Part shown: one piece after another, positions 3,885 through 45,905 of the stretch
Layout: the number at the start of each line of letters is the position of its first letter
How positions within the stretch are numbered: position 1 is the stretch's first letter
Source: Aphelenchoides besseyi
Lineage: Eukaryota > Nematoda > Chromadorea > Rhabditida > Aphelenchoididae
Assembly: GCA_024699855.1 (NCBI GenBank)
Contig: JAMPIQ010000001.1
Location: 15,314,001 to 15,378,000, forward strand
Direction of reading: 5' to 3'
Length of the DNA: 64,000 nucleotides
Position numbers and translations under genes: made by a program
Notes under the pieces: model-generated
The model's database searches: none
Told to the model about the DNA's origin: nothing
The model's input: only the letters and a program-made list of their open reading frames with translations

Positions 3885-4953
3885 ATGCCGATTAAAGCGT
3901 CTGGAGAAGCGGTGAGTATCCTCGATACTGTTTCGCAAACTCCAAAAACCATGAAACTTTTCGACCAAATTTCTTGTTCTCATCTTCGCCATTTCAGTTG
4001 AAGAAATTCGTCTTTGCAAAATCGCGTTACTGGTACTTCGCTTCGCAACTTCGTCGGGTGAAGAAAACACACAGAAAGATGATCTCATGCAAAAAGGTTT
4101 GTTCACGTGCGTTCGATTGTTCTATTTCGTTCTTTAGGTCTTCGGGAAAACGCGATGGATCAAGAACTTCGGAATTTGGCTCCGATACGATTCACACACC
4201 GGGCATCACAACATGTACCGTGAATATCGCAATGTTACAATGGCTGGAGCGGTTACTCAAGCCTACCGTGATATGGGTGCTCGTCATCGGGCACAAGCGG
4301 ATCGCATCCAAATCATCAAAGTCCAACGTATTGAAGCTGGTGAGTCCATTAAAAGATTCCTTGTTTTGATTCCTTGTCTTTCAGCAGATACGAAACGCGC
4401 TGGTGTCAAAAAATTCCATGACGCAAAGATCAAGTTCCCGTTGCCTCATCGTGGGAACAGTATGCAGATCTTCGTCAAAACACTCACTGGCAAAACGATT
4501 ACTCTCGATGTCGAGGCCACTGAAACAATCGAAAATGTCAAGGCCAAGATCCAAAAGAAGGAGGGAATTCCACCGGAGCAACAAAGTTTGATCTTTGAAG
4601 GTAAGTTAAAAATTTTTGTTCCTTAAACAGCAGAAATTTCAGGACAACCGCTCGAGAATGGACGGAATCTCAGCCAATACAATGTTCAAGCAAAAACGAC
4701 TCTGCATTTGCTTCAACGGCTCAGGGGAGGCGTCCTTGTTGAGGAAGACGAAAACAATCGAGCCATTCAAATTTACGATGAAAACATCATGGTGCGCGGC
4801 CTAAAAGCGCTCAAAACATGGATGTCGAAAAACGCAAACCAATTTGCGATCATTTTCTTCGCAAATTTGTCCGCTCGTATGATTGAGAAGCAGATTTATC
4901 CTTCCAATAATCATTGCGCTGTTAGCAATGGTACTGGAACAGCATTGCCGTGA
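3885..4953 (+). CDS. RPL18A: Ribosomal protein L18a (eL20) fused to ubiquitin and a hydrophobic C-terminal tail
   Basis: Exons: 3885-3911, 3998-4096, 4138-4339, 4385-4600, 4643-4953, all in phase with GT-AG introns. The N-terminal part is eL20, a core 60S protein ([50 protein letters not shown]). The usual last ~20 residues of eL20 are replaced by GNS and then a full 76-residue ubiquitin from [15 protein letters not shown] to LQRLRGG. Ubiquitin has Lys 6, 11, 27, 29 and 33, but position 48 is Gln and position 63 is Ala. Leu8, Ile44 and His68 are kept; Val70 is Leu. After LRGG comes a ~75-residue tail: acidic VLVEEDENN, a basic helix and hydrophobic FAIIFFANL. Known ribosomal fusions place ubiquitin first, so this order is reversed. 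Deubiquitinase cleavage after LRGG would free the tail and leave L18a-ubiquitin joined (inference). A polyadenylation signal AATAAA is at 4981. Confidence 0.9.
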
Positions 4954-39100: not shown

Positions 39101-40189
39101 TTCAACAAATGAATCCGAACTGGTCAGGAGTTAGTTTATCGCTATGTTGTCGCGTCTAACTTTAATTTCATAGGATCGATTGTTCCAAGAAGCTCGAAAA
39201 ATTGTCGGTGCTGAGATTCAAGCTATTTTGTACAATCAGTACTTACCAAAGATTCTCGGTTCTGCTGTTGATCGTTTGATCGGAACATACAAAGGCTACG
39301 ATCCGACTGTTGACGCGACAATCTCCAACGTTTTCACAACTTCTGCTTATCGTTTTGGTCACGGAATGATTATGGAAAATTATCCACGTATTGGCGAGAG
39401 CGGTCAACCAATTCCTCACGGTCCTTATACGTTTAGTGAAGGCGTCTTCAAGTCAAACAAAGTGCTTTTCGAAGGTGGCGTCGATCCGATTATGCGTGGT
39501 TTGTGGTCAACGGCTGTCAAAAGACCACACCGAATGACACCGGCAATCACAGAATCAATGTTTGGAACGTAAGTTTTATCGTACTCAACAGGCAACTTAA
39601 TCACAAATTGTAGGACGGATCTCGGATCAGTTAACATTATGCGTGGACGCGAACATGGAATCCCGTCATATAACAAATGGCGTAAATTTTGCGGTATGCC
39701 ACATGCCCAATCGTTTGACGAATTGAAGGAACAAATTCTCGATTCGAGCATCCGAAATGCTTTGGCCAACAATTTTGCATCACCTGGTAAGCTCAATAAA
39801 TTTTGGCATTTTCATTAAATTGAAACTTCAGACGATGTTGATTTGTACGTTGGTGCGATGGTCGAGGATCCGGTGATTGGCGGCTTGGTTGGATCGACTT
39901 TGGCGTGTATCATTGGCGAGCAATTCAAACGAACTCGTGATGGAGATCGGTAAAAATGACATGGCAAACTTGAGTAATCGAATCGAACTTTAGATTCTAT
40001 TACGAAAATCCGGGCATCTTTACACCTGCACAAGTTGTCGAACTCAAAAAGGCATCGCTATCTCGTATTTTATGTGATAATGGAGACGCAATTCGAGAAG
40101 TTCCACCTGATGCATTCGTGATGCCGAAACGTGGTCTCGTACCGTGCAGTCAAGTAGCCGCCATTGACCTATCCAAATGGAAAGAATAA
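36157..40189 (+). CDS. mlt-7: ShKT plus animal haem peroxidase (MLT-7/SKPO-like)
   Basis: Secreted haem peroxidase likely to cross-link cuticle collagens or act in surface defence. [20 protein letters not shown] is a signal peptide. An N-terminal ShKT domain spans two exons ([39 protein letters not shown]). After a large intron (about 36661-37507) the peroxidase begins: [23 protein letters not shown], distal His in [31 protein letters not shown], proximal His in [18 protein letters not shown], then [20 protein letters not shown] and the C-terminal [19 protein letters not shown]. About 14 exons, normal length. The combination of one ShKT domain with a full peroxidase is the MLT-7/SKPO architecture of nematodes; MLT-7 is required for moulting. 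No damage seen. Confidence 0.9.
37995..38115. repeat. Intronic short tandem-like GGTAATAAGC repeats
   Basis: An intron of the peroxidase contains at least five copies of a GTAATAAGC-like unit spaced 8-30 bp apart between about 38008 and 38115. Origin unknown; low-complexity expansion is the simplest view. Confidence 0.5.
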
Positions 40190-40976: not shown

Positions 40977-41315
40977 GTTCAAGTTCTGACAAAACTGTCC
41001 CAACAACGATGATATCGAAACTTACAAGTACGCACTCTCTCGACCCTACGGATTGACCGGTCCAATCAATTACTATCGTGCGGCTGCACCTTACATGCAC
41101 GATTCTTATCACCAAAGCGAACTCATCGGTTTGATTCAATCGAAAACGTTGATCATTTGGGGTGAACTGGACACCACATAGACTTTGCCGGTGCTCATGC
41201 ATCTCTACGCTTTTGCGCTGATGCCCAATTAAAACTGACTCCCACAGCATCGCATTTCGTTCAAGAAGACGAACCCGAGAAAGTGAACGCCTACATCGAA
41301 GAATTCATTGCTTAA
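40977..41315 (+). pseudogene. C-terminal fragment of an epoxide hydrolase (alpha/beta hydrolase)
   Basis: The frame reads NDDIETYKYALSRPYGLTGP, INYYRAAAPYM, then LIIWGELDTT. This matches the C-terminal half of soluble epoxide-hydrolase-like enzymes, including the 'LIIWGExD' strand that carries the acid residue. An in-frame TAG follows at about 41178, then a shift of frame before ASHFVQEDEPEKVNAYIEEF, which holds the catalytic His region and ends at 41315. No upstream nucleophile exon is present. A decayed single-exon remnant. Confidence 0.7.
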
Positions 41316-41584
41316 GTGGACCGTCGATCCTCGATAATACCGCAGCAAAAGCAGCATTGTAATTCTTTGTCGTTCACTCATCTAACTTATCGTATATTAA
41401 CGTAGTTTGCTGTGTATTTCTTTTCGAATCTTGGTCTTGTTTTCATTGTCTGCCAAATCGTTTGTTTTTACTGCTGTAAACATGAAACGAATTTCTCGTT
41501 GATAATAAAAGATACCATGAACAACTTCTATTTGAATTCAACATTCCAGTGGTTTCGGTTCTGTTGTTTTCAACGAATTTCTGA

Positions 41585-41628
41585 AGATTGTCTGCTTGTG
41601 ATCTCTAGTCGCTTTTGGAATAAAACAT
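41585..41628. repeat. Direct repeat flanking the ubiquitin-tail region, copy 1
   Basis: A 44-bp block starting AGATTGTCTGCTTGTGATCT, repeated at 44511-44554 with two or three differences. Confidence 0.7.
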
Positions 41629-42039
41629 GCTATCGGTAATACAACTTACGTGGAATGTTGTTATGGTCGGTGGGAATGCCGTGCACATAACTTGTGTAAT
41701 CAGTTGATGGAAGAGCTGAAATTTGCCGTCCTTTTCGATGACAGTAATCTCTTCGTACCGCTTAGTTCGTGAGTAAGTGGAAGAGACTGAAGGCACATTG
41801 ATCGTTGCTCTCGTCTAAATTGCCACCTTATTTCTTGGTAGTTCATCTTACTAACCGAAGCCGATTTTGTAGTTGCGAGAACAAAGTTTCTCCAAAAGCT
41901 CGGTCTAAAACAACATACCTGAAATCCGTCAACAAGAACCGGAGGAAATCGCTTACTTTCGCAATACATGGCCATCATATTTTGAATTTCTCGGATTCTG
42001 CAGGAATCTTTTTGTTCTCAAAAACATCATTCCACCTGA

Positions 42040-42384
42040 AACCACGTCCAAAAGTTATGTTCAGTGCGATCAAACTGACCACTTCATGTTCTTCTAACTC
42101 CGGCCGTAGCCGTAATCCACACGCGTGACATTCGCTTTCTTCGTTCTATTTGAAGTGATTGAACAGCGGAATCACAAAGTCCTAAAAACGGTCTCTTGAA
42201 TTGAACGTTTCGAACTCACGACTTCATGTCCGGCATCAACTAAAATGTCCGCTAAACGTCCTTTAAAACCAATGTGAGAGTGTCCCAAATCCGTAGATAT
42301 GAACAGAAAACGTTCAGTAGAAACAGCCGGCAACAAGACAAGCGGAACAATCGCAGGACAAAACAACATCATACGCGATGCCAT
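42040..42384 (-). pseudogene. N-terminal fragment of a UDP-glycosyltransferase
   Basis: From ATG 42384: MASRMMLFCPAIVPLVLLPA is a signal peptide, then STERFLFISTDLGHSHIGFK and GRLADILVDAGHEV. This is the typical N-terminus of nematode UGTs (donor-sugar conjugation enzymes of the ER lumen). The next exon reads DFVIPLFNHFK and hits TAG; a one-base shift in the adjoining A-run recovers RTKKANVTRVDYGYG, which fits UGT. Possible further scraps lie at 41640-41990. The sugar-binding C-terminal domain is absent. Broken gene. Confidence 0.6.
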
Positions 42385-43006
42385 AACCTTCGACTTGATC
42401 GTCTTTTTATAGCGACCGTCTCGACTCTACTCGTTTTACATGTAGTTTGTAGTGTAGTCCCTGGAGCTAATTGATTCGAATGATCGTACAACTTCTGTTG
42501 TGACGCAAACAAAGAAGTTCGTGTGACTAGTTGCACTAAACGTGTGGATTGTGTTTTTTCGAAGTGGTTGATAAGCGAGTTCAGTTGCTATCACCTTTGT
42601 GACTTGAACATGCCAACTGCGATATCAAACGTCTCGAGTGATTACAAATCTCGAAATGGTCGATTGTTTCTTCACGATCTTCAGTGGTTGCTTTCAGATG
42701 AACTCTCAAATCGATCGTAACATGAAGTTGAACGAAATGCCAAGATTTCTGGAAACCGGCACTGTTGTCCGATGGTCAACACTTACGGCTCGAGCATGTG
42801 GTTTTGAGCTTTGGATTTCTTGCGTTTGAACTCGTTGGAATAGATTCTGAGCCAACGAGTGAGTTTTTTCAATTGTCGAGTTACAACGAGCTCTCGGAAA
42901 AGGTTTTCCTTGTTTCCAATCACGTGTTTATTGAGATTGAAAGTTCAACGAAAACCAAAATTGCCGTTTGAATCGCGAATTGCGAAAAAAGTTTCGAAAA
43001 ACTCAC

Positions 43007-43180
43007 CGCTTCTCCAGACGGTTTGAGCGGCATTTTCGTTGGATACAACCTGAAAGCCAATAAACTAACAAAACTAAATTGAGAGCACGGAAAAAATAAA
43101 AATTGCGAAAATGACGAATCTGAAGATCGCCGTTCACCTAACAGACGGCCTAAAAAACGATCGACTTTTCGTTCGGAAAT
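43007..43180 (-). repeat. Inverted copy of the L18a-ubiquitin promoter and first exon
   Basis: On the minus strand, ATG at 43033 begins MPLKPSGEA, ending at 43007 with the same GTGAGT donor as the original first exon (MPIKASGEA, 3885-3911). Upstream on the minus strand (to about 43180), sequence containing CAGATTCGTCATTTTCGC and GTCTGTTAGGT matches the original promoter at 3735-3825. Just beyond the donor, plus-strand bases 42945-42970 again match 3685-3712 in direct orientation. So pieces of the L18a locus lie here head to head. No later L18a exons follow on this strand. Confidence 0.75.
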
Positions 43181-43317
43181 CGTTTCGGCATTGTGCATCA
43201 GAAGGTGCGGAAAAAGGTTTGTTCATGTTCCGATTGTTCTGGGGTCTGTTTCAATAAACCCGTTTTTTCGGAATCGGGAACCGTCAAAATCTGAAAGTGT
43301 TCCAGCGAAAATTTCAG

Positions 43318-43622
43318 GTAAGCAACTCGCGGAAAAACGTATTCTAGCCGATTATAATATCGCCCAGGAGTCAACATTACGGACCTCGCAATATAACGAA
43401 CAAAGAAATTCGGTCCTCTTTCTAGGCGGAAGGATGATCGCAGATCGCGATGGGAATCTTCGGGCAGTCGAGGCTTGTGCTCCGAGCCGTTTCATGTACG
43501 GTTTAAACGCCACGATGAAGTGTATCGGTAAGAGTTTGATACAATTTTGTATCATCTTTACCGCGGACCTTTTGGCAAGAGTCGTTGAGAACAGATACCT
43601 AGACAAAACGCAACCAAAGTAA
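43318..43622 (+). CDS. Ubiquitin-tail paralogue B (second half of ubiquitin plus tail)
   Basis: After a TTTCAG acceptor at the same position as the last exon of the L18a-ubiquitin gene: GKQLAEKRILADYNIAQEST, matching ubiquitin residues 47-66. Then an extra stretch (RTSQYNEQRNSVLF) and LGGRMIADRDGN in place of LRLRGG. The tail follows: FMYGLNATMKCIGKS, hydrophobic LIQFCIIFTADLLARV, end DKTQPK. The frame is also open upstream to 43191. Upstream bases 43205-43245 resemble the L18a exon 2/intron 2 boundary (GGTTTGTTCATG). The exon for the first half of ubiquitin is not present. Could be expressed, or a remnant. Confidence 0.55.
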
Positions 43623-43702
43623 TTGCTTGTTTTAAGATGTCGTAATCGAGTGTTTGGCTAATTTTCATTTTTTTGTTGTTGTTAAGCAACAGAATCTTTC
43701 AG

Positions 43703-43986
43703 GTGAACAACTTGAGGAAAACCATACGTTGACTGAGTACAATGTCCAAAATCATTCCACAATCCATTTGCTTGGTCGACTACGCGGAGGAATTCTTAAG
43801 GAGGAGGACGAACAAAGTCGCGTGAATGAACCGATTGAATACAGTAGACGAGGTGCTAGATTCGTCATGAATTGGTTCAGAGAAAATTTTACCAGTAAGC
43901 TGGTGATTGTTCTTGGAAACTCGACGGTTCAGATTTTAGTTTCGATTGCTAATTCCTTTAAAACACCTGAGAATCCCCTTACATAA
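43703..43986 (+). CDS. Ubiquitin-tail paralogue C
   Basis: After a CTTTCAG acceptor: GEQLEENHTLTEYNVQNHST, then IHLLGRLRGGILKEEDEQ. This is the second half of ubiquitin with an intact LRGG, Glu at position 48 and Asn at 63. The tail is YSRRGARFVMNWFRENFTS, hydrophobic KLVIVLGNSTVQILVSIANS, stop at 43986. No first-half exon lies between copies B and C, only about 80 bp of AT-rich sequence. Of the four array members this one keeps the best cleavage-competent C-terminus. Confidence 0.6.
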
Positions 43987-44159
43987 TTGGCAATGATGAT
44001 GGTGAAGGGGAGAAAGTGGAGTTGACGATCGGAAGCAAGGTGTTAAACTTATAGATTGGAGTATGGAGAGTACGTATTTAACATTTGTTTTGCAAGATAC
44101 GAACTTTTACTCAGTAAATTTGACTTGAAATTAACACCGAAATCTGTTTTTCTGATCAA

Positions 44160-44400
44160 ACCATATCGAAAGTTGAGCCGATTGCGTGGCGGCATGATCG
44201 CGGTTGATGAAGAGAACGGCGCAGTTGTAGTAAACCGTCCGCCGTTTATGAGGCGTGCATATCAAAAAGTTAAAGATTGGACAATTCAGCACTTCTCAAA
44301 CCTTCTAGTCATTGTATTTGCAAATCTTATTGTTAATCTTATCACTTTCTTTTGTAACTACTTCTATACAAACCACACGCAACCACCAAACTCCCCATGA
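44160..44400 (+). CDS. Ubiquitin-tail paralogue D
   Basis: The ubiquitin part is reduced to KPYRKLSRLRGGMIAVDEEN; sequence before it is open to 44056 but unlike ubiquitin. The tail is the best preserved: PPFMRRAYQKVKDWTIQHF, then SNLLVIVFANLIVNLITFF and CNYFYTNHTQPPNSP. The hydrophobic run exceeds 20 residues, long enough for a C-terminal membrane anchor. LRGG is intact. Confidence 0.55.
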
Positions 44401-44510
44401 TTACTGATTGCAGGTTTACTGAAATACGGATATTGTTGTGAGTCGAATTAATTACTTGTGTACCTACGTTGCAACAAACCGATGAAACCAGCACAATAGT
44501 AAAGGGTATG

Positions 44511-44554
44511 AGATTGTCTGCTTGTGATCTCTAGTCGATTTTGGAACAAAACAT
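44511..44554. repeat. Direct repeat flanking the ubiquitin-tail region, copy 2
   Basis: Second copy of the 44-bp block at 41585-41628. It lies between paralogues D and E. Confidence 0.7.
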
Positions 44555-44732
44555 GTACGCTATGGAGTTTGTAGGTACCAATCTGTCGGATTCAAAGGTT
44601 TATTCGTTAATTAACTAATCGATTTCAATAACAAACTTTGGTATTGAAGAAATAAATTAAAATGCGGATGACCAGAAAGAAATCGTATTTACAAAAATCA
44701 TATTCGATAAAAACTAATCTTCCCGTTGAACA

Positions 44733-44830
44733 ACTTTCGAACGGAAAGTCGATCGTTGGTGTAGGTCGTATGTTAGATCAACGGAGCTCTTCGAAGTCGA
44801 CTTTTCCTTCTCGTGATCTTTATGTCCGCG
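44733..44830 (+). promoter_or_regulatory. Partial direct copy of the L18a-ubiquitin promoter
   Basis: CTTTCGAACGGAAAGTCGAT, followed by GTAGGTCGTATGTTAGATCA, aligns with 3728-3775 and continues more weakly to TCGACTTTTCCTTCTCG. It sits about 120 bp upstream of paralogue E, so that copy may have its own inherited promoter. Confidence 0.6.
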
Positions 44831-44956
44831 CTTTTTACGTGCTTTTCGAGTTATTTTATTGATTGTCTTTGTTTCCAGATGTGCCCACTCTACAACATGC
44901 AAAACTTCGCACCGAACCACGTTGTCTGCTGTTCTTTTTTAAACCGAAGTTATCAG

Positions 44957-45255
44957 GTACGCAATTAAAAAATGGGCGAAACCTCGTCGACTACAACATT
45001 CAAAATAAGTCCACCGTCCAATTGGTTCCTCGGATTCGCGGAGAGATAATGGCTCCCAGCGAAGAGCAACGAGCGGTCGTTGATCCGGCGCTGCGGCTTA
45101 TGCGGCGTGCAGCTCAAGAAGTGACGAATTGGGCCACAAACCATTTTTCTACCTTTATGGTAATATTTTTAGCCAACCTTATGGCGGGCTTTGTGAATTT
45201 TTTGATCAGCTACATTTTCAAGCAATTGACGCAACCACATAAACCGCATGATTGA
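44957..45255 (+). CDS. Ubiquitin-tail paralogue E with IRGE instead of LRGG
   Basis: After a TTATCAG acceptor: GTQLKNGRNLVDYNIQNKST, then VQLVPRIRGEIMAPSEEQ. The di-glycine is lost (Arg-Gly-Glu), so deubiquitinase cleavage at this site is not expected. The tail reads RLMRRAAQEVTNWATNHFST, FMVIFLANLMAGFVNFLISY and ends KQLTQPHKPHD: a basic amphipathic helix plus a membrane-length hydrophobic segment. The reading frame is open upstream to 44863, and a partial L18a promoter lies just before. AATAAA follows at 45290. Confidence 0.6.
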
Positions 45256-45379
45256 ACTGCCTAACTGATGTAATCACTCAGTGCTAAAATAAACACTTTA
45301 TTTGAAGAGAAGGCAGCTTTGCAACAAAACAGCAAATGACATTCAATTAAAAGGATTAATTTCTGTCTTATTTACTAGT

Positions 45380-45905
45380 CTTTCGCCGTCAGCCACAAAC
45401 GACGATACTTCAACGCCGTCATCCTTCCGACGCTACTCTACGCTTCGGAAACCTGGGCAGCCACTGCGGGAACCTACGAGCGAATTGCCAAAACACAACG
45501 AACAATGGAACGAAGAATGTTGGGCCTACGTCTCCGCGACAAAAAAACCCTCTGCGTGGATACGGTCAGTCACATTACTCACCGATGCCGTTACAGCCGC
45601 TCGGCGACGCAAGTGGAAATTCGCTGGACGTGTTCTCGGCAGCCAAACCCAAGCACCGCAAGCTCGATGGTCTCACGCGCTTACAATATGGCAACCACCA
45701 ACCACGCGACGCTTCGGTGATGGCCGACCCCGAATTAGATGGGAGGACGAGATACGAAAGCACCTTGGGCGCCCCCGCGTAACCGATCCAGCTACATGGT
45801 CAGCGGCAGCAAACAACCAACGCCGATGGCAACAACTCGGCAATACTTTCGAACTACCAGGACCAGCCCGACGACGAACATGACGTTGACAGCCACCAAC
45901 GCAGA
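45380..45905 (+). mobile_element. Non-LTR retrotransposon 3' fragment (reverse transcriptase C-terminal region)
   Basis: RRYFNAVILPTLLYASETWA, then YERIAKTQRTMERRMLGLRL in one frame; then, after a one-base shift, AARRRK WKFAGRVLG, FGDGRPRIRWEDEIRKHLG and NNQRRWQQLGNTF. This order (YGSETW-like, Q+R..R.+LG+, GRP..RW.D++) is typical of the end of LINE-type polymerases of the RTE/Jockey-like groups. No endonuclease or palm domain is present. AATAAAAATTGAATTG at the end may be its 3' tail. A dead 5'-truncated copy next to the ubiquitin-tail array. Confidence 0.75.

Follow-up and report, generated by a model that had tools for sequence, protein, structure and literature searches.

In a 64,000-nucleotide stretch of contig JAMPIQ010000001.1 of the plant-parasitic nematode Aphelenchoides besseyi, here called the window, four short ubiquitin-like sequences (copies B–E) lie in a row at 43318..45255. 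The initial annotation took them for a tandem array of tail-anchored ubiquitin-like proteins, and the question is whether they are genes, parts of genes or the remains of genes. The answer begins with gene A of the same window: B–E are indeed copies of its last exon, which encodes ubiquitin residues 48–76 and a tail, with E-values far beyond chance.

Gene A and its family

3885..4953, strand +: gene A, a complete shortened L18a–ubiquitin–tail gene whose spliced model is the annotated protein P0001
3885-3911, 3998-4096, 4138-4339, 4385-4600, 4643-4953: exons of gene A

Splicing at GT-AG signals gives a product of 284 residues, or one residue less through a CAGCAG acceptor. The longer form is identical at every residue to P0001, deposited as ‘60S ribosomal protein L18a [Aphelenchoides besseyi]’, and an AATAAA is located 28 nt 3' of the stop codon. 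Pfam recognises L18a at residues 62–105 and ubiquitin at 138–209, and has no match in the last 75 residues. P0001 is in fact a chimera in which a shortened L18a is followed by ubiquitin and then by a helical tail, a structure that its database name conceals.

The genome searched comprises 47.4 Mb in 31 contigs (C1 18.1, C2 17.8 and C3 10.0 Mb). A search with L18a found six places: five are fusions and one, at C1:15856034, is the parental gene. With E, A, F and I as genome-wide queries and a tail profile run on fetched loci, at least 17 tail copies were located, 16 of them on contig C1; copy counts are lower bounds because the searches score the best candidates only. The loci outside the window are as follows.

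14951k: copy L038, a weak match (E 0.011)
C1:15212k: copy L009
C1:15226k: copy L010
C1:15242k: copy G
C1:15415.1-15416.7 kb: a second last-exon array, copy I and three further copies in a row
C1:15672k: copy F
C1:15706k: copy K
C1:15711k: copy H
C3:7192k: copy J

Only A and F (2 of the 17 tail copies) yield complete gene models in which the splice signals are intact; F, at C1:15.672 Mb, splices cleanly to a product of 271 residues. The exon-1 donor is altered in G, exons 1–2 of J were not seen, and H has a promoter and a tail, its frame lacking any L18a or ubiquitin part. Ubiquitin half and tail are out of frame with each other in I, K, L009, L010 and L038, and two of the three copies adjoining I keep just the beginning of the tail in frame. 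No whole L18a sequence is present in A, F or G: compared with the parental gene, all three are missing the C-terminus and some 27 residues of exon 2.

Ubiquitin is almost frozen in evolution. A differs from the canonical sequence at 19 of 76 positions and F at 18 of 76, and these two alone have the full ubiquitin fold with an extension after Gly-Gly. Lysine 48 is replaced in 7 of the 10 readable copies (A, C, E, F, G, L009 and L013) and retained in B, I and J. The Gly-Gly junction reads RLRGG in A, C, D and F, LQGG in G, ICGG in J and LCGG in I; it has diverged to RIRGE in E and to FLGG, behind an insertion, in B.

Two features of copy J were noted in passing. A minisatellite of repeated ERVG/ERVD units (L012:2104-2230) forms its linker between ubiquitin and the tail helix, and Helitron genes lie directly upstream (L036:1-9999 and L012:3-725, C3:7180000-7194000; Helitron_like_N E 7e-56, PIF1 E 4e-27). 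Helitron capture was considered as the source of dispersal and set aside: the C3 Helitron appears to have landed within intron 2 of J, where one end of the element seems to lie, instead of capturing the copy.

Anatomy of the array

The array was dissected by local blastn with 12 sequences, comprising the parental gene and other family loci, and the limits of exon 1 were read directly from the DNA.

42944..42977, strand +: opening segment of the family promoter; its 34 nt are 94-97% identical to those of A, G, F, H, L009 and L013
42980..43187, strand -: remaining promoter and L18a exon 1 (43007-43033), inverted in place
43211..43240, strand +: remnant of L18a intron 2, 85% identity to A over 33 columns, E 2e-4
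43318..43622, strand +: copy B, last exon; ubiquitin half degenerate; tail end DKTQPK
43703..43986, strand +: copy C, last exon; ubiquitin 48-76, K48E, RLRGG intact; tail diverged and lacking ANL
about 44173..44400, strand +: copy D; LSRLRGG is all that remains of ubiquitin; membrane-length hydrophobic segment
44194-44400, strand +: 68-codon ORF of D, with Met directly after Gly-Gly
44511-44733: segment between D and E, 93% identity to another family locus
44730..44862, strand +: family promoter and 5' UTR, collinear with E, sharing 73-75% identity with three other copies across 133-140 nt
44888..44925, strand +: vestige of L18a exon 2, 38 nt at 79% identity with parental L18a, E 5e-4
44957..45255, strand +: copy E, last exon; ubiquitin half with K48T and RIRGE; long tail helix
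45049-45255, strand +: tail-only ORF of E, 68 codons, with Met one codon past the Gly-Gly position
45288..45293, strand +: AATAAA, likely the poly-A signal of E, 32 nt 3' of its stop

The inversion and the want of L18a exon 3 and of the exon with the first half of ubiquitin had been overlooked by the initial annotation, as had the copies elsewhere in the genome. The inverted segment at 42980-43187 is 73–82% identical, on the opposite strand, to seven other loci including the parental gene. The exon 2 remnant before E derives from the segment that is missing in A, F and G. L18a exon 3 and exon 4, the latter carrying the first half of ubiquitin, have no match in the array by local blastn at E <= 1e-3, and the genome ubiquitin search entered the array only for the second half in C. 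An alternative in which the array's last exons are spliced to a common front within it is rejected, exon 4 not being found there. The acceptor cag/G is common to A, B, C and E and absent in D. No AATAAA-like word was found within 150 nt of B, C or D, nor of G or J. Upstream of the ORF of E, ATGs in other frames precede the start, and a short upstream frame terminates at a TAA that overlaps the ATG of the 68-codon ORF.

A simple tandem duplication is contradicted by the relationships of the copies. B is closest to F (60% amino acid identity across the tail) and K (68%), some 315 and 349 kb away, and clusters with both in the tree (ultrafast bootstrap 98); D and E group weakly (FastTree support 0.73). 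In the genome-wide protein search with E as query, D (2.6e-11), C (4.4e-11) and A (1.8e-10) were recovered and B was not in the list; B matches A at 7.1e-5 and F at 8.8e-17.

The surroundings are heterogeneous. Positions 41249-42976 are a patchwork of segments with 86–98% identity to other places on C1. A partial animal haem peroxidase gene lies at 39174-39572 (Pfam E 4e-31), and a frame at 45379-45720, in which Pfam has no match, resembles the terminal part of a non-LTR reverse transcriptase. An Rfam scan of the window found no family reaching its gathering score.

Conservation and selection

The initial annotation held that the tail was better conserved than ubiquitin itself, so that selection would act on the tail. 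The reverse was found: among the seven copies holding both parts, the ubiquitin half surpasses the tail in similarity in 20 of 21 pairs, the exception being B versus F, which also contradicts selection on the tail instead of ubiquitin. The observation that D keeps little of ubiquitin was correct. The three-part tail was borne out in its acidic linker, basic stretch and hydrophobic core, in whose alignment a single I and a single A are almost unchanged; the TQP ending is present in B, D and E, and C lacks both the ANL core and TQP. Conservation of the tail, as aligned, is one of pattern more than of letters.

Past constraint on the tail is nevertheless detectable. By the Nei–Gojobori method, the D and E tails have pS 0.73 and pN 0.35 (omega about 0.19, with differences of 0.37/0.30/0.64 at the three codon positions), B and F have 0.53 and 0.23 (omega 0.30), A and H 0.21 and 0.05 (omega 0.20), and F and K 0.20 and 0.14; since synonymous distances are mostly near or at saturation, these omegas are rough and speak of past, not present, constraint. 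When the same differences were spread over sites at random (2000 shuffles; 21 pairs of the 55 possible), tail amino acid identity exceeded expectation at a fraction below 0.05 in 17 pairs; it did not in C/A (0.15), C/F (0.06), F/K (0.20) and E/J (0.43). All four array tails are open over 63–69 codons at nucleotide divergences of 0.28–0.63, for which the chance of remaining stop-free if neutral is 0.019–0.185 across the 14 tested tail pairs with an array copy. Speaking against constraint, the 92% tail identity of A and H does not exceed that of their 3' flank (94%). Taken together, the comparisons support the view that most tails evolved under past purifying constraint at the protein level, as the initial annotation had expected, though not above that on ubiquitin.

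The genes are also mosaic in age. Pairwise comparison of A, F, G and the parental gene gives dS of 0.12–0.21 for the L18a front; its exons are 85–100% identical and introns 1–3 are 74–100% identical, with introns 2 and 3 identical in A and G. Among A, F, G and J, dS in ubiquitin is 0.73–1.98 in the first half and from 0.5 to saturated in the second, and tail dS, outside the close pairs A/H and F/K, is above 0.9 or saturated. Young or homogenised fronts thus stand before old ubiquitin–tail parts. Such a young front joined to an old back resembles uneven gene conversion within one gene.

Structure of the tail

The claim of membrane-length segments in D and E was upheld. Over 19 residues on the Kyte–Doolittle scale, D (2.25) and E (2.07) are clearly membrane-like, values reached by 5 and 13 of 1000 shuffles, respectively. 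F (1.86), G (1.79), K (1.67), B (1.62) and C (1.55) are borderline, with 172 of 1000 shuffles as hydrophobic as G itself, and J (1.36), H (1.13), I (1.01) and A (0.87) fall below membrane level. Hydropathy thus predicts no membrane segment for A, H or I, and the tail of the complete gene A is too charged and short for a membrane span. A single C-terminal span with none before it, as in a tail anchor, was found by hydropathy in D and E only, and only these two look clearly membrane-spanning on such predictions. None of the eleven tails A–K has a cysteine at position -4, as a CaaX motif would require.

AlphaFold2 models are consistent with a helical tail. For A, from a thin alignment, the ubiquitin blocks reached pLDDT 71–95 and the tail was modelled as helices at 228–244 and 246–266 (blocks 84–92), with L18a poorly modelled and low overall scores (mean 67.5, pTM 0.36). 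The exon of E was modelled as one helix at 43–91, with blocks of 74–95 over most of it, again at low overall scores (mean 68.9, pTM 0.34). Of the proposal of tail-anchored ubiquitin-like proteins, there stand a helical tail after ubiquitin and a span of membrane length in D and E (borderline in B, F and G). That B–E themselves are such proteins is not supported: no first ubiquitin half was found for any of them, D has only LSRLRGG of ubiquitin and the ubiquitin half of E ends in RGE.

Searches beyond the family

Protein and profile searches with the tail found no relatives outside A. besseyi, at a sensitivity that is limited: the tail diverges fast, and a word-based search could therefore miss relatives. 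The tail of A, searched against 5.8 billion proteins, gave 15 candidates, among which P0001 itself was the sole match at E <= 10. A profile of 11 last exons matched at least 28 proteins at E <= 1 (7995 candidates scored, with a length window applied); from their coverage (19–37%) and their Pfam columns the 28 were judged as a group to match by the ubiquitin half. A search across the L18a/ubiquitin junction gave 1787 matches, of which the best 120 were swamped by polyubiquitin. Pfam found ubiquitin in five of eight last exons and nothing in three, and on ten tails alone yielded a single match, attributed to chance, in one member (E 0.14). The best PDB profile match, to gp120 (E 0.044), was likewise taken as chance. 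Among the literature matches listed, no title or abstract opening concerned such a fusion or family, which leaves its absence from print unproven.

Other divergent ubiquitin families

A second family, in which ubiquitin is followed by a coiled coil and a hydrophobic exon, occupies C1:16.30-16.41 Mb.

C1:16299500-16305000: locus L039
C1:16371000-16373000: locus L034
C1:16406500-16415000: locus L027

Its ubiquitin is near-canonical, with RGG in two of the three copies read, and six tail copies were aligned, some of which have no ubiquitin match upstream. The copy at 16371k looks intact; at 16.30 Mb, coiled-coil and tail pieces are present where the genome ubiquitin search lists no match. It resembles the first family in having ubiquitin with RGG, a helical extension and a hydrophobic end with AN, and differs in having no L18a and another exon structure. 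An offset of 14 from W to AN is common to five of the six first-family tails that have a W and three of three in the second; despite this, the hhalign probability is 1.1%, and a common origin of the tails is not claimed.

A third family, at C1:14.87-15.72 Mb (e.g. L014:1563-2045), has 12 matches with ubiquitin-like frames of 154–175 residues, a Pfam ubiquitin E of about 1e-8 in the two scanned and the ending GLRRRRVAND in 8 of 10 read. Its frames adjoin a gene that resembles a UDP-glycosyltransferase, in whose exon in the window Pfam found no match. All three families lie almost wholly within C1:14.8-16.5 Mb, where there are many segmental duplications with inversions. A. besseyi has several families with strongly diverged ubiquitin, a tendency to lose K48 and new C-terminal helices.

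Origin and fate of the array

The family is real and unusual; the array was over-interpreted by the initial annotation. We lean towards reading the array as decaying, partly re-purposed last exons of a ubiquitin-extension family that is restricted, within the reach of the searches, to A. besseyi. A duplicated L18a (eL20) gene would have lost its end and become joined to a ubiquitin unit with a helical tail. In the complete members A and F, the housekeeping L18a promoter would drive a single protein, which deubiquitinating enzymes might cut after the retained RLRGG, releasing a tail of about 60–75 residues and an L18a–ubiquitin piece that mostly lacks K48. The amphipathic-to-hydrophobic helix of the released tail could then associate with membrane, loosely in A and spanning it in the D/E type. 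Segmental duplication and rearrangement in this duplication-rich region would have built B–E and severed the last exons from their front. The first two, B and C, are probably dying. D and E, judging by their frames, may still be translated as 68-residue tail-only membrane proteins that begin with Met at or just past the cleavage site, although their constraint may predate the loss of the front, in which case both could be recent pseudogenes. The near-saturated pS of D and E and the ATGs upstream of the ORF of E also count against this reading.

That all four copies are plain pseudogene debris, their open frames a residue of earlier constraint, is quite possible, if somewhat doubtful. The missing front exons, the inverted promoter and the want of an AATAAA-like word within 150 nt of B, C and D (as of G and J) would fit debris, and other copies have decayed visibly: two of the four tails of the second array are partly in frame and one more has a frame-shifted ubiquitin half, as K, L009, L010 and L038 have their two parts in different frames. 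Debris accounts less readily for four tails that stay open at such divergence, for the promoter and poly-A signal retained by E, or for the equal length of the D and E ORFs. Those same open frames, with the membrane-length tails of D and E and their predicted helix, had suggested four working tail-anchored ubiquitin-like genes; the lack of a first ubiquitin half and of exons 3 and 4 throughout, and of ubiquitin from D, largely refutes that view, which we hold to be very improbable.

The array might instead be a store of silent last-exon cassettes, converted into expressed fronts so that one promoter–L18a front serves many tails. Fronts that are alike beside tails that are old and diverse, a break near the L18a/ubiquitin joint and the existence of two last-exon arrays would fit. 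A recent donor should be near-identical to the tail of a complete gene, and the best pair, B and F, reaches 60%; the same pattern would follow from front duplication and ordinary conversion by the parental L18a gene, and a cassette store seems improbable.

The re-purposing of last exons, our preferred reading, admits a broader and rather unlikely form, in which ubiquitin acts as a nursery for membrane proteins: a tail would first be an extension freed by deubiquitinases and later an independent short gene whose start Met occupies the former cleavage site, and D and E would be examples. This is based on the parallel in the second family, where tail pieces occur without detected ubiquitin. If the tails are released and reside in membranes, they would make visible a route to the birth of new membrane proteins.

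Comparison with known systems

UBL40 and S27a are fusions of ubiquitin with a ribosomal protein. The A. besseyi fusion is like them in this respect, but the order is reversed: the ribosomal protein comes first, ubiquitin is in the middle and an unrelated tail is last.

A C-terminal CaaX prenylation motif defines the MUB/UBL3 proteins. These are described as membrane-anchored ubiquitin-fold proteins (PMC4996978, PMC11242132). The likeness, on that description, lies in a membrane-anchored ubiquitin fold; MUBs are prenylated, whereas the A. besseyi tails, which have no Cys at -4, would anchor by a helix.

An N-terminal secretion signal is the defining feature of the secreted ubiquitin extension effectors of cyst nematodes. 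Such proteins, of the Hs-UBI1 class, are reportedly secreted by cyst nematodes, as Tytgat et al. are said to have found in 2004. In two further papers, a ubiquitin extension protein homologue is named among candidate effectors of A. besseyi, and Hs-UBI1 is placed in Heterodera schachtii (PMC3956754, PMC4802876). In that class so described, as in the present family, a nematode ubiquitin is extended past Gly-Gly by a lineage-specific C-terminal sequence. In contrast to it, the A. besseyi fusion carries its ubiquitin behind a piece of L18a, and its N-terminus (the first 25 residues in A), judged by eye, shows no signal-like stretch; nor, on the same reading, do the ORFs that start MIAVDEEN and MAPSEEQR. 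Compared with the class as so described, its ubiquitin is strongly diverged and its extension is long, helical and partly membrane-like.
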